The position numbers and the translations under genes are program-made. A DNA stretch of 64,000 nt, from assembly GCA_021325515.1 (NCBI GenBank), contig JAJPHC010000014.1:62001-126000 (forward strand), read 5' to 3'. Shown here one piece after another: positions 11,188 to 14,925 of the stretch (positions within the stretch are counted from its first letter, which is position 1; each line of letters starts with the position of its first letter). The stretch is from Acidobacteriota bacterium. Lineage in GTDB: Bacteria; Acidobacteriota; Thermoanaerobaculia; Gp7-AA8. Below the pieces are notes generated by a model that had not been told where the DNA came from, searched no databases, and saw nothing but the letters and a program-made list of their open reading frames with translations.

Positions 11188-12231
11188 GTGCAATGCAGCT
11201 CTGCCGTGGCCGAGCTGCAATTGCGCGTTCCTTTCGCGACGCTGCTGAAGCTGGCGTTCTTCGCCCTGCTGATCGTCTGCACGATCAGGCTTTGGAGCAT
11301 CATTCTGATGTTCACGGTCTCCGTGCTGCTGGCGGTCATGCTCGATCCCCTGGCGGGTTGGGCCGCGCGTCATGGAGTGCGGCGCGGCCTCGCGATCGCT
11401 GCCATCGGCGTCGTTCTCTTCGGCGCGCTCATCGCGTTCGTGTTCGTCGTCGTGCCGCTGATGGCGCGCGAGATCCTCGAGCTCGGACACCAGTTCCCGC
11501 GCATCGTGCAGCGGCTCTCGTCGGCATCGCCGAGGATCCGGTCGATGCTCGACTCGGTGATCGCTTCCGCGAAGAGCTCCCCGCAGGCCAGGCAATGGCT
11601 GTCGCGCGCTCCTCTCATCGGCATGTACATCAGCGAGGCGCTGCTCGCCGTCGTGTTGATCTTCGTCCTGACGATCTATCTGCTGCTCGAAGGACGGCAG
11701 ATGTTCGAGTGGCTGATCGCTTTTGCGCCGGCGAAGCTGCGTCCGCGGATCCGGAGGACGGCCGAGGAGTCGAGCGGTGTCGTGCGGGCGTACATGCGGG
11801 GGCAGGTCATCACCTGCTTCACGTGCGGCGGCGTCGCGCTGACGACGCTGCTGCTCCTGCGCGTTCCAGCCGCGGTGCCGCTCGCCGTCCTCGCGTTCAT
11901 CTGCGATCTCGTCCCGGTCGTCGGGACGATCATCATGAGCGTGCCGGCGGTGCTGCTCGCGCTGCTCGTGTCACCGGCCGCGGCCTTCGTCGTCGTCGGG
12001 GTCTATCTCGCGTATCACTTCGTCGAGAGCTACGTGATCATTCCTCGCGTGTATGGCGATCAGATGAAGCTGTCGACACTCGCCGTGCTGCTGGCGGTGA
12101 CGGCAGGGGGCGCATTGCAGGGACCGGCCGGAGCCGTGCTCGTGCTGCCGTTCGTCGCCGCCTACCCAATCGTCGAGCGCATCTGGCTGAAGGAGAAGCT
12201 GCCGGAAGATACGGTGGAGAAGCATGCGTGA
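11188..12231 (+). CDS. AI-2E family transporter (PerM/YdiK-like permease)
   Basis: A 347-residue polytopic inner-membrane protein. Start GTG 11188 is preceded by GAGGGGG at good spacing. The pattern is that of the family: helices near residues 15-55 (MLDPLAGW motif) and 65-90, a soluble segment, then a cluster of helices from about 150. The conserved PxxGxxI-type region ICDLVPVVGTIIMSVPAVLLAL lies near 235, and YVIIPRVYGDQMKLS near 280. Despite the family name most members have uncharacterised substrates, and some are Na+/H+ antiporters. It probably forms an operon with dodecin. Confidence 0.88.
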   Translation: MQCSSAVAELQLRVPFATLLKLAFFALLIVCTIRLWSIILMFTVSVLLAVMLDPLAGWAARHGVRRGLAIAAIGVVLFGALIAFVFVVVPLMAREILELGHQFPRIVQRLSSASPRIRSMLDSVIASAKSSPQARQWLSRAPLIGMYISEALLAVVLIFVLTIYLLLEGRQMFEWLIAFAPAKLRPRIRRTAEESSGVVRAYMRGQVITCFTCGGVALTTLLLLRVPAAVPLAVLAFICDLVPVVGTIIMSVPAVLLALLVSPAAAFVVVGVYLAYHFVESYVIIPRVYGDQMKLSTLAVLLAVTAGGALQGPAGAVLVLPFVAAYPIVERIWLKEKLPEDTVEKHA

Positions 12232-12238
12232 GAGTTGT

Positions 12239-12275
12239 GGGCGCCGGGTTTCCCGCGCCCCGCGCCCCGCGCCCG
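12239..12275. repeat. GC-rich inverted repeat at a convergent junction (GGCGC family, short copy)
   Basis: GGGCGCCGGG-TTT-CCCGCGCCC folds into a bulged stem and is followed by repeated CCCGCGC blocks. It occupies the gap between the convergent permease and pheA genes. It is related in composition and position to the elements at 29419-29489 and 38746-38800. Confidence 0.55.
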
Positions 12276-12279
12276 ACAA

Positions 12280-13119
12280 TCACCATTTCGACGGATACGA
12301 ACCCAACACCTTCACCGTCTCCGCGAGCTCCGCCAGATTGGAGATGGCGCGCGCGATTTTCGCGTCGCCGGCGCGGCCGGCGAGATCGAGATAGAAGGCG
12401 TACTCCCACGGCTTGCCTTCGATCGGCCGCGACTCGATCTTCGTGAGATCGATCTCGAACATCGCGAACACGCCGAGTGCGCGGAAGAGCGCGCCCGGCT
12501 TGTTCTCGATGCGGAAGACGAGAGAGGTCTTCCAGCGTGACGTCGCTGCCGGCAGCGGCAGCTCCCTCTCGCCCGATTTCAACAGCAGGAAACGTGTGAA
12601 GTTCTGCGCGTTGTCCTCGATGCCGCGGGCCAGGATCCTGGCGCCGTAGATCGCCGCCGCGTCATCCGACGCGATTGCCGCCGCATCGCAGCGCTGCTCC
12701 TCCATGATCATCCGCACTGCGCCCGCTGTGTCGTGTACGGCGCTCGCTTTCATCGTGCGATTGGCGTCGAGAAACCGCGTGCATTGTGCGAGTGCAACGG
12801 GATGTGAGTAGACATCGCGGACGTGGTGCAGCTCGACGTCAGGCGGCGCAATGAGATTGTGGACGATGCGGAGATTCGTCTCGCCTGCGATCGACAGTCC
12901 CGATTCGAGCATGAGGTCGTAGTTGCGGTGAATCGAACCGGCGAGACTGTTCTCGATGGGCGCGACACAACAGTCGCTCTCGTTCTGCAGCACGGAGTCG
13001 AACATCGCATCGAAGGTGGGGCAGGCGATCGTCTCGATCGCATCGCCGGCCAGCCGCTTCGCCGCACGTTCGCTGAATGCACCGCGCTCTCCCTGATACG
13101 CCACTCGAATCATCGCCAT
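12280..13119 (-). CDS. pheA: Prephenate dehydratase
   Basis: Converts prephenate to phenylpyruvate, the committed step to phenylalanine. 279 residues, monofunctional, with no chorismate mutase domain. The PDT domain (about 1-185) shows YQGERGAFSE, PIENSLAGSI and the catalytic NFTRF motif. The C-terminal ACT domain (about 195-275) carries NKPGALF and IESRP, the residues that bind inhibitory phenylalanine. ATG 13119 has GGAGG 5 nt upstream; a second ATG two codons on is equally reachable. It is preceded by an attenuator, so both enzyme activity and transcription look phenylalanine-controlled. Confidence 0.95.
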   Translation of the reverse strand: MAMIRVAYQGERGAFSERAAKRLAGDAIETIACPTFDAMFDSVLQNESDCCVAPIENSLAGSIHRNYDLMLESGLSIAGETNLRIVHNLIAPPDVELHHVRDVYSHPVALAQCTRFLDANRTMKASAVHDTAGAVRMIMEEQRCDAAAIASDDAAAIYGARILARGIEDNAQNFTRFLLLKSGERELPLPAATSRWKTSLVFRIENKPGALFRALGVFAMFEIDLTKIESRPIEGKPWEYAFYLDLAGRAGDAKIARAISNLAELAETVKVLGSYPSKW

Positions 13120-13130
13120 CGATTCCTCCG

Positions 13131-13171
13131 AAAAAGAAAAAGGCCCGCTCCGTTGATGTCGGAGCGGGCCT
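13131..13171 (-). terminator. Intrinsic terminator (attenuator) in front of pheA
   Basis: On the minus strand, a perfect 12-bp stem (AGGCCCGCTCCG at 13171-13160 with CGGAGCGGGCCT at 13152-13141) and 7-nt loop are followed by TTTTCTTTTT (13140-13131). It ends 1-2 nt before the pheA Shine-Dalgarno sequence. There is no gene for it to terminate other than the short leader frame, which is the attenuator arrangement. Confidence 0.92.
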
Positions 13172-13263
13172 CGCTGTTGAGTGCTGATTCCGTTCGGCTA
13201 CACGATCAGACAGGCCGCGCTCATGCGGCTGAAAAATCGGAAAGCGGAACGGTTGTGTTGCAT
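13141..13263 (-). promoter_or_regulatory. Phenylalanine transcription attenuator (alternative hairpins)
   Basis: Three mutually exclusive structures can be drawn on the minus-strand RNA. (1) Protector: GCCGC-ATGAGC-GCGGC, 13229-13214. (2) Antiterminator: GAGCGCGGCCT (13222-13212) pairing with AGGCCCGCTC (13171-13162), perfect apart from one bulged C. (3) Terminator 13171-13141. A ribosome stalled at the Phe codons (13242-13231) would cover the left arm of 1 and free the strand for 2, allowing pheA expression when charged tRNA-Phe is scarce. Confidence 0.75.
13198..13263 (-). CDS. Putative phenylalanine-containing leader peptide of pheA
   Basis: A 21-residue frame, ATG 13263 to TAG 13198, with phenylalanine codons at positions 8, 10 and 11 (SAFRFFSR). 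It starts 10 nt after the stop of the upstream gene and ends 26 nt before the terminator stem. The codons right after the Phe cluster contain both a small hairpin (13229-13214) and the antiterminator strand (13222-13212). There is no Shine-Dalgarno sequence, but a promoter-like -10 ends 7 nt upstream, consistent with a leaderless message. The role is inferred from this arrangement, not from similarity. Confidence 0.7.
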   Translation of the reverse strand: MQHNRSAFRFFSRMSAACLIV

Positions 13264-13270
13264 GGCGATG

Positions 13271-13299
13271 ACTCTAAACGGTGTGCGACGACTTGTCCA
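13271..13299 (-). promoter_or_regulatory. Candidate sigma-70-type promoter of the pheA leader
   Basis: TGGACA at 13299-13294, 17-nt spacer, TAGAGT at 13276-13271 on the minus strand. The -35 matches consensus at 5 of 6 and the -10 at 4 of 6. Predicted initiation falls at or next to the leader ATG at 13263. The promoter lies inside the 3' end of the preceding gene. Confidence 0.55.
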
Positions 13300-13900
13300 C
13301 TGCTGCTGCGTGCCGTACGACACCATCCTGTTCCTCGGGCTCGAACGATTCCTCGAGCTCCTTCCATGTCGTGTAGCTGAGCCGCGCATCGTGCTGATAA
13401 CGCTCGCTCTCCGAGACGAGCTTGTTCAGCAGTTTCATGTAGCGATGCTCATAGAAATACCGCTTGATGTCGGGATAGAAGAAACCGATTCCCGTCGTCG
13501 CGAAGGCGAACATGTCCTCCACGATGGGGATGAAGGGCGCGGCGATGATGAGACTGCCGATCACGAGTCCGATGAGCGCGAATGCCAGGCGCGCAGCGAT
13601 ATCGCCTCCGCGAAATACGTTCCACGCATTGCGCTCGAGATTCGTGATCTCGAGCGCCGGCCCGGTGTACTGCGGAACGACCGTCCTGAGCACTTCCTTC
13701 TGCAGCGTTTCCCAATAGCTCTTCGAGCCCTTCATCTCGTCATACGCACCCTTGATCTCGGCGAGCTTCTCATTCGCACACGCCTCGACTCCCGCCTCGA
13801 ATGACTCAGGGTCGAGACCGCGGCGCCTGTGCTCGCATTCCTGCAGCACTGCATAGACGACGTGACCGAAGTCGAATTGCGAACCGGCGAGGTTGAGCAT
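13274..13900 (-). CDS. Two-helix membrane protein of the SPFH operon, unknown family
   Basis: 208 residues. The N-terminal half is polar and helical (residues 1-100). There are two adjacent transmembrane helices near 105-125 and 128-147 (LAFALIGLVIGSLIIAAPFI and a shorter FAFATTGIGFFY). A charged helical tail, KRYFYEHRYMKLLNKLVSES, follows. No domain is recognised. It starts 2 nt after the stop of the second SPFH gene, so it is almost certainly translated from the same mRNA and may be a membrane partner of the SPFH proteins. Its end overlaps the pheA leader promoter. Confidence 0.75.
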   Translation of the reverse strand: MLNLAGSQFDFGHVVYAVLQECEHRRRGLDPESFEAGVEACANEKLAEIKGAYDEMKGSKSYWETLQKEVLRTVVPQYTGPALEITNLERNAWNVFRGGDIAARLAFALIGLVIGSLIIAAPFIPIVEDMFAFATTGIGFFYPDIKRYFYEHRYMKLLNKLVSESERYQHDARLSYTTWKELEESFEPEEQDGVVRHAAAVDKSSHTV

Positions 13901-13902
13901 TG

Positions 13903-14925
13903 CTATTGTCCCTGCGTCTCCGTCTGCTGTTGTGCCTTCTGCTGGTACTGGATGACGCCCAGTTGTTCCAGCAGCTTGTTGCCGTCGATGATGACGTTGC
14001 CATTGGGTAGTTTCGGGATCTGGCGGATCTCTTTCTTCTGCAGCGCGTCGATGAGCTGGAGACTGACATAAGCGTCGCCCGCGCTGCCATTGAGGGCGGC
14101 GCGCTCCTTCTTGATTCCGGTCGCCACTGCTTCCCGTTCGGCGAGCGTGGCCTGTGCTTCCTGCTTGCGCTTGACGAGATACGCGTCGGCGTTGCGCTTC
14201 ACCTGTTCGAGCTCGCCCTGTGAGCGCGTCAGTTGTTCGGTCAATTCCGCGACCTTCTGCTGGAGCCGCGCCTTGTTGCCCTCTTGTGTGGCGAGGATTT
14301 CCGCCTCGAGCTTCTCCGCCTGCTTCTCGGCTTCCTTGCGGCGATTGATGAGCGCCTGATACTCGTTCTTGAAGGAGAAATCGCCAAGGATGACCTGCTC
14401 GACGATGATGCCGTACGGCTTGAGTTGCGTCGCCAGCACAGTGGTCGCATCCGACGCCGCTTTGAATCTCTGATCGGGATCGTAGTACTCCTCGGAATCG
14501 AGCCGGTTGAGCACGTCGCGTACATAAGCACGCGTCTGCGGGCGCACCACTCGTTCCTTCAGGACGGTCGTCGTCGGCGCGGCAAGCTTCCAGATCTCCG
14601 GGGCCTTCGTCGGATCGATGCGCCAGCGGACGACGACGTCCGTCTCGATGTCGTTGCCGTCGCGGGTCTTGAAACGGAGATCGTCCTTTTCCTTGCGATC
14701 GCCTTCCGTCGCCTTGGCGGTCATGAGCAGGTTCTGGGTCGACGTGTCGAACGTCGTCCAGTCGTTGATGATCGGTGCAAAGAAATACGTTGCGCCGGGC
14801 GCGGCGATCTCAGTATTTCCTGTGATCTTGCTGAACCGCACGCCGACCTGTGTGGCGCCCGTCGTATGCGGTGCGCACGCGCTCAGCGCCATCAGGGTTG
14901 TCGCGATGAAAATCAGTTTCTTCAT
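13903..14925 (-). CDS. SPFH/prohibitin-family lipoprotein
   Basis: About 340 residues. The start MKKLIFIATTLMALSAC (14925) has GAGGA upstream and a type II signal with lipobox LSAC; an ATG at 14937 is 4 residues longer and less likely. The SPFH/Band 7 domain (about 25-220) shows GATYFFAPIINDW, LRFKTRDGNDIETDVVVRW and a long coiled coil (about 205-290, rich in E, K, Q, A). Family members form ring-like scaffolds in membrane microdomains. A lipid-anchored periplasmic-side SPFH protein paired with a transmembrane one is notable. Middle gene of a three-gene operon. Confidence 0.85.
   Translation of the reverse strand: MKKLIFIATTLMALSACAPHTTGATQVGVRFSKITGNTEIAAPGATYFFAPIINDWTTFDTSTQNLLMTAKATEGDRKEKDDLRFKTRDGNDIETDVVVRWRIDPTKAPEIWKLAAPTTTVLKERVVRPQTRAYVRDVLNRLDSEEYYDPDQRFKAASDATTVLATQLKPYGIIVEQVILGDFSFKNEYQALINRRKEAEKQAEKLEAEILATQEGNKARLQQKVAELTEQLTRSQGELEQVKRNADAYLVKRKQEAQATLAEREAVATGIKKERAALNGSAGDAYVSLQLIDALQKKEIRQIPKLPNGNVIIDGNKLLEQLGVIQYQQKAQQQTETQGQ

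Follow-up and report, generated by a model that had tools for sequence, protein, structure and literature searches.

The prephenate dehydratase gene pheA of an Acidobacteriota genome is very probably preceded by a ribosome-mediated transcription attenuator that responds to phenylalanine, a mechanism known from Escherichia coli. We located the element on the minus strand of a 64,000-nucleotide stretch of DNA, hereafter the window. The window is part of contig C30, and the source genome measures 5.4 Mb. This pheA is the sole prephenate dehydratase of the source genome, the leader codons match the product amino acid, and the best named matches of the PheA protein are MAGs labelled Thermoanaerobaculia, which probably places the genome in that class. 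As far as sequences can tell, the comparison supports well that the attenuator is genuine, ordinary in its mechanism and unusual in its place. For this model we computed the anatomy of the element, its recurrence with changed sequence, its excess complementarity and its predicted ribosome-dependent folding.

Anatomy of the pheA leader

The element combines a leader ORF carrying cognate codons, a terminator between leader and gene, and an alternative antiterminator that stalling is predicted to free, as in leader-peptide attenuators (Table 1). The antiterminator strand lies inside the leader frame, directly 3' of the Phe codons, and the terminator lies 3' of the leader and 21 nucleotides upstream of pheA, whose ATG is at 13,119. 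From the leader start to the U-tract the RNA measures about 130 nucleotides, half of which are ORF.

Most of this anatomy had been proposed in a sequence-only reading of the window. The 21-codon frame with its FRFF Phe codons (codons 8, 10 and 11) is present where that reading had placed it, and so are the antiterminator strand pairing with the terminator 5' arm save for one bulged C and, as a predicted fold, the protector hairpin overlapping the leader frame. The terminator with its U-tract beside the pheA Shine-Dalgarno was also correctly located, and its stem, given as 12 bp, has 13 pairs. The promoter-like hexamers upstream of the leader ATG had been overlooked. This pair of hexamers has 9 of 12 consensus matches (shuffles average 0.2), and its -10-like member ends 7 nucleotides before the leader ATG, which puts the predicted transcription start at about 13,265-13,263, at the ATG itself.

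On the same strand, an ORF of 208 amino acids (13,274-13,900) without Pfam or NCBIfam match ends 11 nucleotides upstream of the leader ATG, and two SPFH/Band 7 proteins are encoded further upstream.

Table 1. Features of the pheA attenuator region, in window positions
Feature	Position	Strand	Basis
Promoter-like hexamers TGGACA (13299-13294) and TAGAGT (13276-13271), 17-nt spacer	13271-13299	-	Consensus match only
Leader peptide ORF MQHNRSAFRFFSRMSAACLIV, then stop; 21 codons	13198-13263	-	ORF reading; layout recurs in L003 and L004
Regulatory Phe codons F8 TTC (13242-13240), F10 TTT (13236-13234), F11 TTC (13233-13231)	13231-13242	-	Phe clusters also in relatives
Antiterminator strand GAGCGCGGCCT, 11 nt, complementary to terminator 5' arm, one bulged C	13212-13222	-	Duplex and masked folding
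Protector hairpin, core GCCGC (13229-13225) / GCGGC (13218-13214)	13211-13231	-	Predicted fold
Outer stem CCGTTC (13252-13247) / GAACGG (13195-13190), closing the leader hairpin	13190-13252	-	Predicted fold
Intrinsic terminator: 13-pair stem and 7-nt loop (13172-13140), then T-rich tract TTTCTTTTTC	13130-13172	-	Strongest of 4 in window
pheA Shine-Dalgarno GGAGG	13125-13129	-	Sequence reading
pheA, prephenate dehydratase with ACT domain, without chorismate mutase fusion	12280-13119	-	NF008865 above cut-off; PF00800, PF01842

Chance controls

For the chance controls we used the window itself, the loci retrieved for comparison, and shuffled sequences. The attenuator region folds better than 200 out of 200 shuffles (z = -4.0). 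The duplex between the antiterminator strand and the terminator 5' arm reaches -19.3 kcal/mol (RNAduplex), compared with -12.2 +/- 2.4 for shuffled sequence, and only 1.2% of the shuffles equal it. Both strands of the window together contain four strong terminators, and the pheA one is alone in having a Phe-cluster ORF upstream, defined as a short ORF that has three Phe codons within a stretch of six. When the upstream sequence was shuffled, such an ORF appeared in 5 of 2,000 trials and a terminator of equal strength in none of 400.

A scan of positions 12,000-14,500 with Rfam returned no family at gathering score, T-boxes and known riboswitches included. The Rfam Phe leader, which is the gamma-proteobacterial pheL family, was unmatched up to an E-value of 5 in the same interval and up to 0.5 in two relatives (L003 and L137). 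Sub-threshold Rfam matches in the interval were put down to chance.

Distribution of phenylalanine leaders

The family has two further genera with a leader, a terminator and a Shine-Dalgarno before pheA, in divergent sequence. The leader of one (G014) is MISASLRFFAFFSAGRAGSVTV and that of the other (G013), which begins with GTG, is VNTTSCFAARFTGFFSKERR; their Phe clusters read RFFAFF and RFTGFF. Both genera keep the Phe codons, the antiterminator strand just 3' of them and the terminator, and outside the Phe cluster the leader peptide is unconserved between genera of the family. Conservation of the Phe codons and of the antiterminator strand, on which the sequence-only reading had staked its proposal, holds in the genera that carry the element. 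The leader itself is absent from 8 of the family's 11 homologous pheA loci (a twelfth locus is cut off). One genome without the element, G007, ties with G014 as the nearest relative by pheA identity. In the pheA tree, the source genome, G014 and G013 fall within one supported clade of six sequences, the other three of which have no leader; in this clade the leader may have arisen once and then been lost, or have been gained repeatedly. A further leader, MNFSQFSSARYYFWYEPQPGLCRVARC, is found with the divergent pheA of G003.

Phe leaders occur also outside the family, in G113 and in G079, where the leader precedes a fused chorismate mutase-prephenate dehydratase. By family, Phe leaders stand upstream of pheA in f15 and f17, and f38 has them at 11 of 12 loci (for example MLISRRFFVFSFRTPGARPGGV). 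G023 is a weaker candidate for a Phe leader.

In each of the five Thermoanaerobaculia pheA leaders tested, the pairing between the terminator arm and the strand behind the Phe codons of the same leader outdoes 95.8-98.8% of shuffles (fractions 0.012-0.042), and the best partner of the arm begins 3-18 nucleotides past the last Phe codon. The arms themselves differ between these genomes. In family f38 terminator and leader arms hardly vary, and covariation there was discarded as uninformative. Since the duplex test is mixed in f38 (0.05-0.47), it is the peptide and the terminator that carry the case for conservation in this family.

The -10-like hexamer lies 7 nucleotides before the start codon in the source genome, 10 in G014 (GATAAT), 10 in G013 (TTGAAA-17-CATAAT) and 13 in G003 (TTGACA-17-TACTCT). 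Judging from these promoter consensus matches, the leader mRNA of the source genome is probably leaderless.

We also noticed leaders of mixed aromatic composition. A locus on the minus strand (L090, bases 24-107) has an SSGFYFYF leader and a terminator before a DAHP synthase gene, and another (L101) has ARYYFWY and a terminator before a divergent pheA. Two Chloroflexota MAGs (L039:2483-2611 and L050:5932-6012) carry the Phe-Tyr leaders FWFYFYGSP and FYFYGSP with a terminator before chorismate mutase and DAHP synthase, and a Flavobacteriaceae MAG (L049:132-200) has a Phe/Tyr leader and a terminator before pheA.

Folding with a masked ribosome

We folded the leaders with a 27-nucleotide ribosome footprint blocked and measured how much of the nascent terminator 5' arm was paired upstream. 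In the source genome the arm is sequestered at 0.19 with no ribosome, at 0.68-0.81 with a ribosome stalled at Phe 8, 10 or 11, and at 0.26 with a ribosome at the stop codon. For E. coli pheL, used as a control with the same script, the corresponding values are 0.04, 0.74-0.84 and 0.04. These values indicate that stalling would free the antiterminator and that a ribosome at the stop codon would cover it. Once complete, the terminator of the source genome dominates at equilibrium even with a stalled ribosome (0.94-0.98), unlike at most stall positions of E. coli pheL, and the decision must therefore be kinetic, taken before the 3' arm emerges.

The contrast between stalled and stop-codon ribosome is equalled by 11% of shuffles in the source genome, 4% in G014, 47% in G013, 8% in G113 and 0.7% in G079, and we rejected it as too weak for a stand-alone statistic. 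The predicted folding supports the attenuator model, but is not strong by itself. Since the antiterminator strand lies inside the ORF in the source genome, G014, G113 and G079, the ribosome itself would act as the shield. The source genome has a predicted protector hairpin in addition, whereas G014 and G079, which have no clear one, apparently depend on the ribosome only, and according to the predicted fold their ribosome-free RNA would antiterminate.

Proposed mechanism and its alternatives

The following course is our inference as regards promoter use, leader translation, ribosome stalling, termination in vivo and the phenylalanine response. RNA polymerase would initiate at or beside the leader ATG, with a ribosome trailing it. 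As long as no ribosome covers it, the protector hairpin would mask the antiterminator strand. When Phe-tRNA is scarce, the ribosome would stall at Phe 8, 10 or 11 and cover the 5' side of the protector stem, leaving GAGCGCGGCCU exposed; this strand would capture the emerging terminator 5' arm before the 3' arm is made and allow read-through into pheA. With ample phenylalanine, the ribosome would reach the UAG and cover part of the antiterminator strand, so that the terminator would form and transcription would stop upstream of pheA.

The hairpin might instead be the plain terminator of the upstream gene (13,900-13,274, minus strand), with the Phe-rich frame and the complementary strand present by coincidence. 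That gene is encoded on the same strand and does end only 11 nucleotides short of the leader ATG, and the fold contrast of the source genome taken alone is weakly significant. Against this stand the same layout before pheA in other genera with different upstream sequence, the rarity by chance of Phe-cluster ORFs before terminators (5 of 2,000 shuffles), the complementarity between leader and arm in five genomes, and the position of the hairpin 3' of the leader and close to pheA, which together make a mere upstream terminator improbable. Riboswitches, T-boxes and protein-binding elements likewise put a terminator before biosynthetic genes, and an element of this sort could sense phenylalanine or tRNA directly, the ORF being incidental. 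With no Rfam family at gathering score, an RNA of about 130 nucleotides that is half ORF, and Phe codons that recur where the RNA sequence does not, we regard direct sensing as the least probable of the alternatives.

Nearly as improbable is that the leader works chiefly by another route, be it a small RNA or peptide that is translated or acts in trans, translational coupling, or Rho, the terminator then being a constant brake. A trans-acting, near-leaderless attenuator RNA is known in Sinorhizobium meliloti (PMC7298713) and the start predicted here is similar; such a route, however, leaves unexplained the antiterminator complementarity and its position right after the Phe codons, and the peptide beyond the Phe cluster is unconserved between the genera of the family. 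We hence retain ribosome-mediated attenuation.

The closest known counterpart of this attenuator is E. coli pheL-pheA (NC_000913.3, 2737599-2738905), which also has a short Phe-rich leader, an antiterminator competing for the terminator 5' arm and a terminator before pheA, and which gives a similar predicted folding pattern with a masked ribosome. The pheL logic with an unrelated leader, as the sequence-only reading had described it, therefore stands for the nascent folding, but the element is no exact copy. Leader peptide and RNA are different, with three Phe codons compared with seven in E. coli; the acidobacterial pheA lacks a chorismate mutase fusion; the antiterminator is part of the ORF, where that of E. 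coli follows the stop codon; the ATG follows the -10 hexamer by 7 nucleotides, probably leaving the mRNA leaderless; and the terminator wins at equilibrium, with kinetic control only. A leaderless leader, predicted here, is shared with the S. meliloti trpLE(G) attenuator (rnTrpL/peTrpL), whose RNA has its 5' end at the leader ATG (PMC7298713). That system, however, senses Trp rather than Phe, differs in gene, sequence and phylum, and is the only one of the two for which trans activity has been described.

Histidine and tyrosine leaders on a common RNA core

Beyond the window, near 131-132 kb of contig C30, the source genome has a His attenuator (L219/L226) with leader MLMNTTGSSRTHHHHHHVM and a terminator before his genes, which speaks for attenuation at its pheA as well. 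Similar leaders are found at L212-L217, L222 and L239. Tyr-rich leaders with a terminator, such as MTRTAQRFAYYYGYFT and MFLRAYYYGFYT, precede DAHP-synthase genes in several genera of the family (L150-L153, L156, L158, L159, L162 and L170). In G005 (L236) a Tyr/Trp leader, MTGKASRNSYYGWWHYRS, lies before an aroDE-like gene on the common core described below. A search upstream of the family's chorismate-binding genes gave no convincing Trp leader.

The His, Tyr and Tyr/Trp leaders have in common one RNA core of five segments (L150-L162, L212-L222 and L234-L245): GGGGUGC or GGGGC at the stop codon (1), GCGCCCC (2), GAAGGGGCGC (3), CCUCUUC (4), and GAAGAGG followed by a U-tract (5). Searched across 149 genomes of the class, the exact pattern gave 12 matches, which lie in 9 genomes and without exception in this family; the reversed pattern, used as a control, gave none. 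Rfam gave no match for the His/Tyr core. An automatic alignment of the core misaligned segment 1 and the terminator arms, and was for this reason used neither for pair counts nor for a covariance model.

When 16 core sequences were folded with a masked ribosome, stalling favoured the antitermination state, in which segments 1:2 and 3:4 are paired, in 13. Placing the ribosome at the stop codon removed 1:2 from every sequence and led to 2:3 in eight, with 3:4 persisting in several, including that of the source genome. A switching model for the five-segment core is promising, but this predicted folding supports it only in part.

We give even chances to the proposal that the family has modular attenuators. 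According to this proposal one core, confined to the family within the class, would be combined with different codons depending on the gene downstream: His at his genes, Tyr at DAHP synthase and Tyr/Trp at the aroDE-like gene. A separate and simpler Phe design would stand next to it at pheA, and in the core a ribosome at the stop codon would hide segment 1 and favour termination. If this is true, attenuation by Tyr-specific leader peptides would add a new codon class. A survey gives T-boxes for tyrosine (PMC1262725), and we found no tyrosine leader-peptide attenuator in the openly searchable literature, subscription papers being outside our scope. The presence of His, Tyr and Tyr/Trp leaders on one core makes codon swapping between attenuators testable.

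Discussion

The screen of Naville and Gautheret in 2010 included Acidobacteria and predicted premature terminators and attenuators there, almost none with an associated function (PMC2965389). The sequence-only reading had likewise remarked that attenuation of this class is little described in such bacteria. To the knowledge of these authors at that time, leader-peptide systems had been shown, apart from the Firmicutes case that they presented, in Proteobacteria and Actinobacteria only (PMC2965389). Compared with their acidobacterial predictions, we can assign gene, amino acid and codons, and the Phe attenuator described here has all its parts and recurs in several families of the phylum. The mechanism that it most likely uses had hardly been described in Acidobacteriota before; related switches prove to be common there. 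Our data suggest that the leader peptides of such attenuators in Acidobacteriota begin at the very end of the RNA, and that translation-coupled control of amino-acid synthesis is common in this phylum and easily gained or lost.
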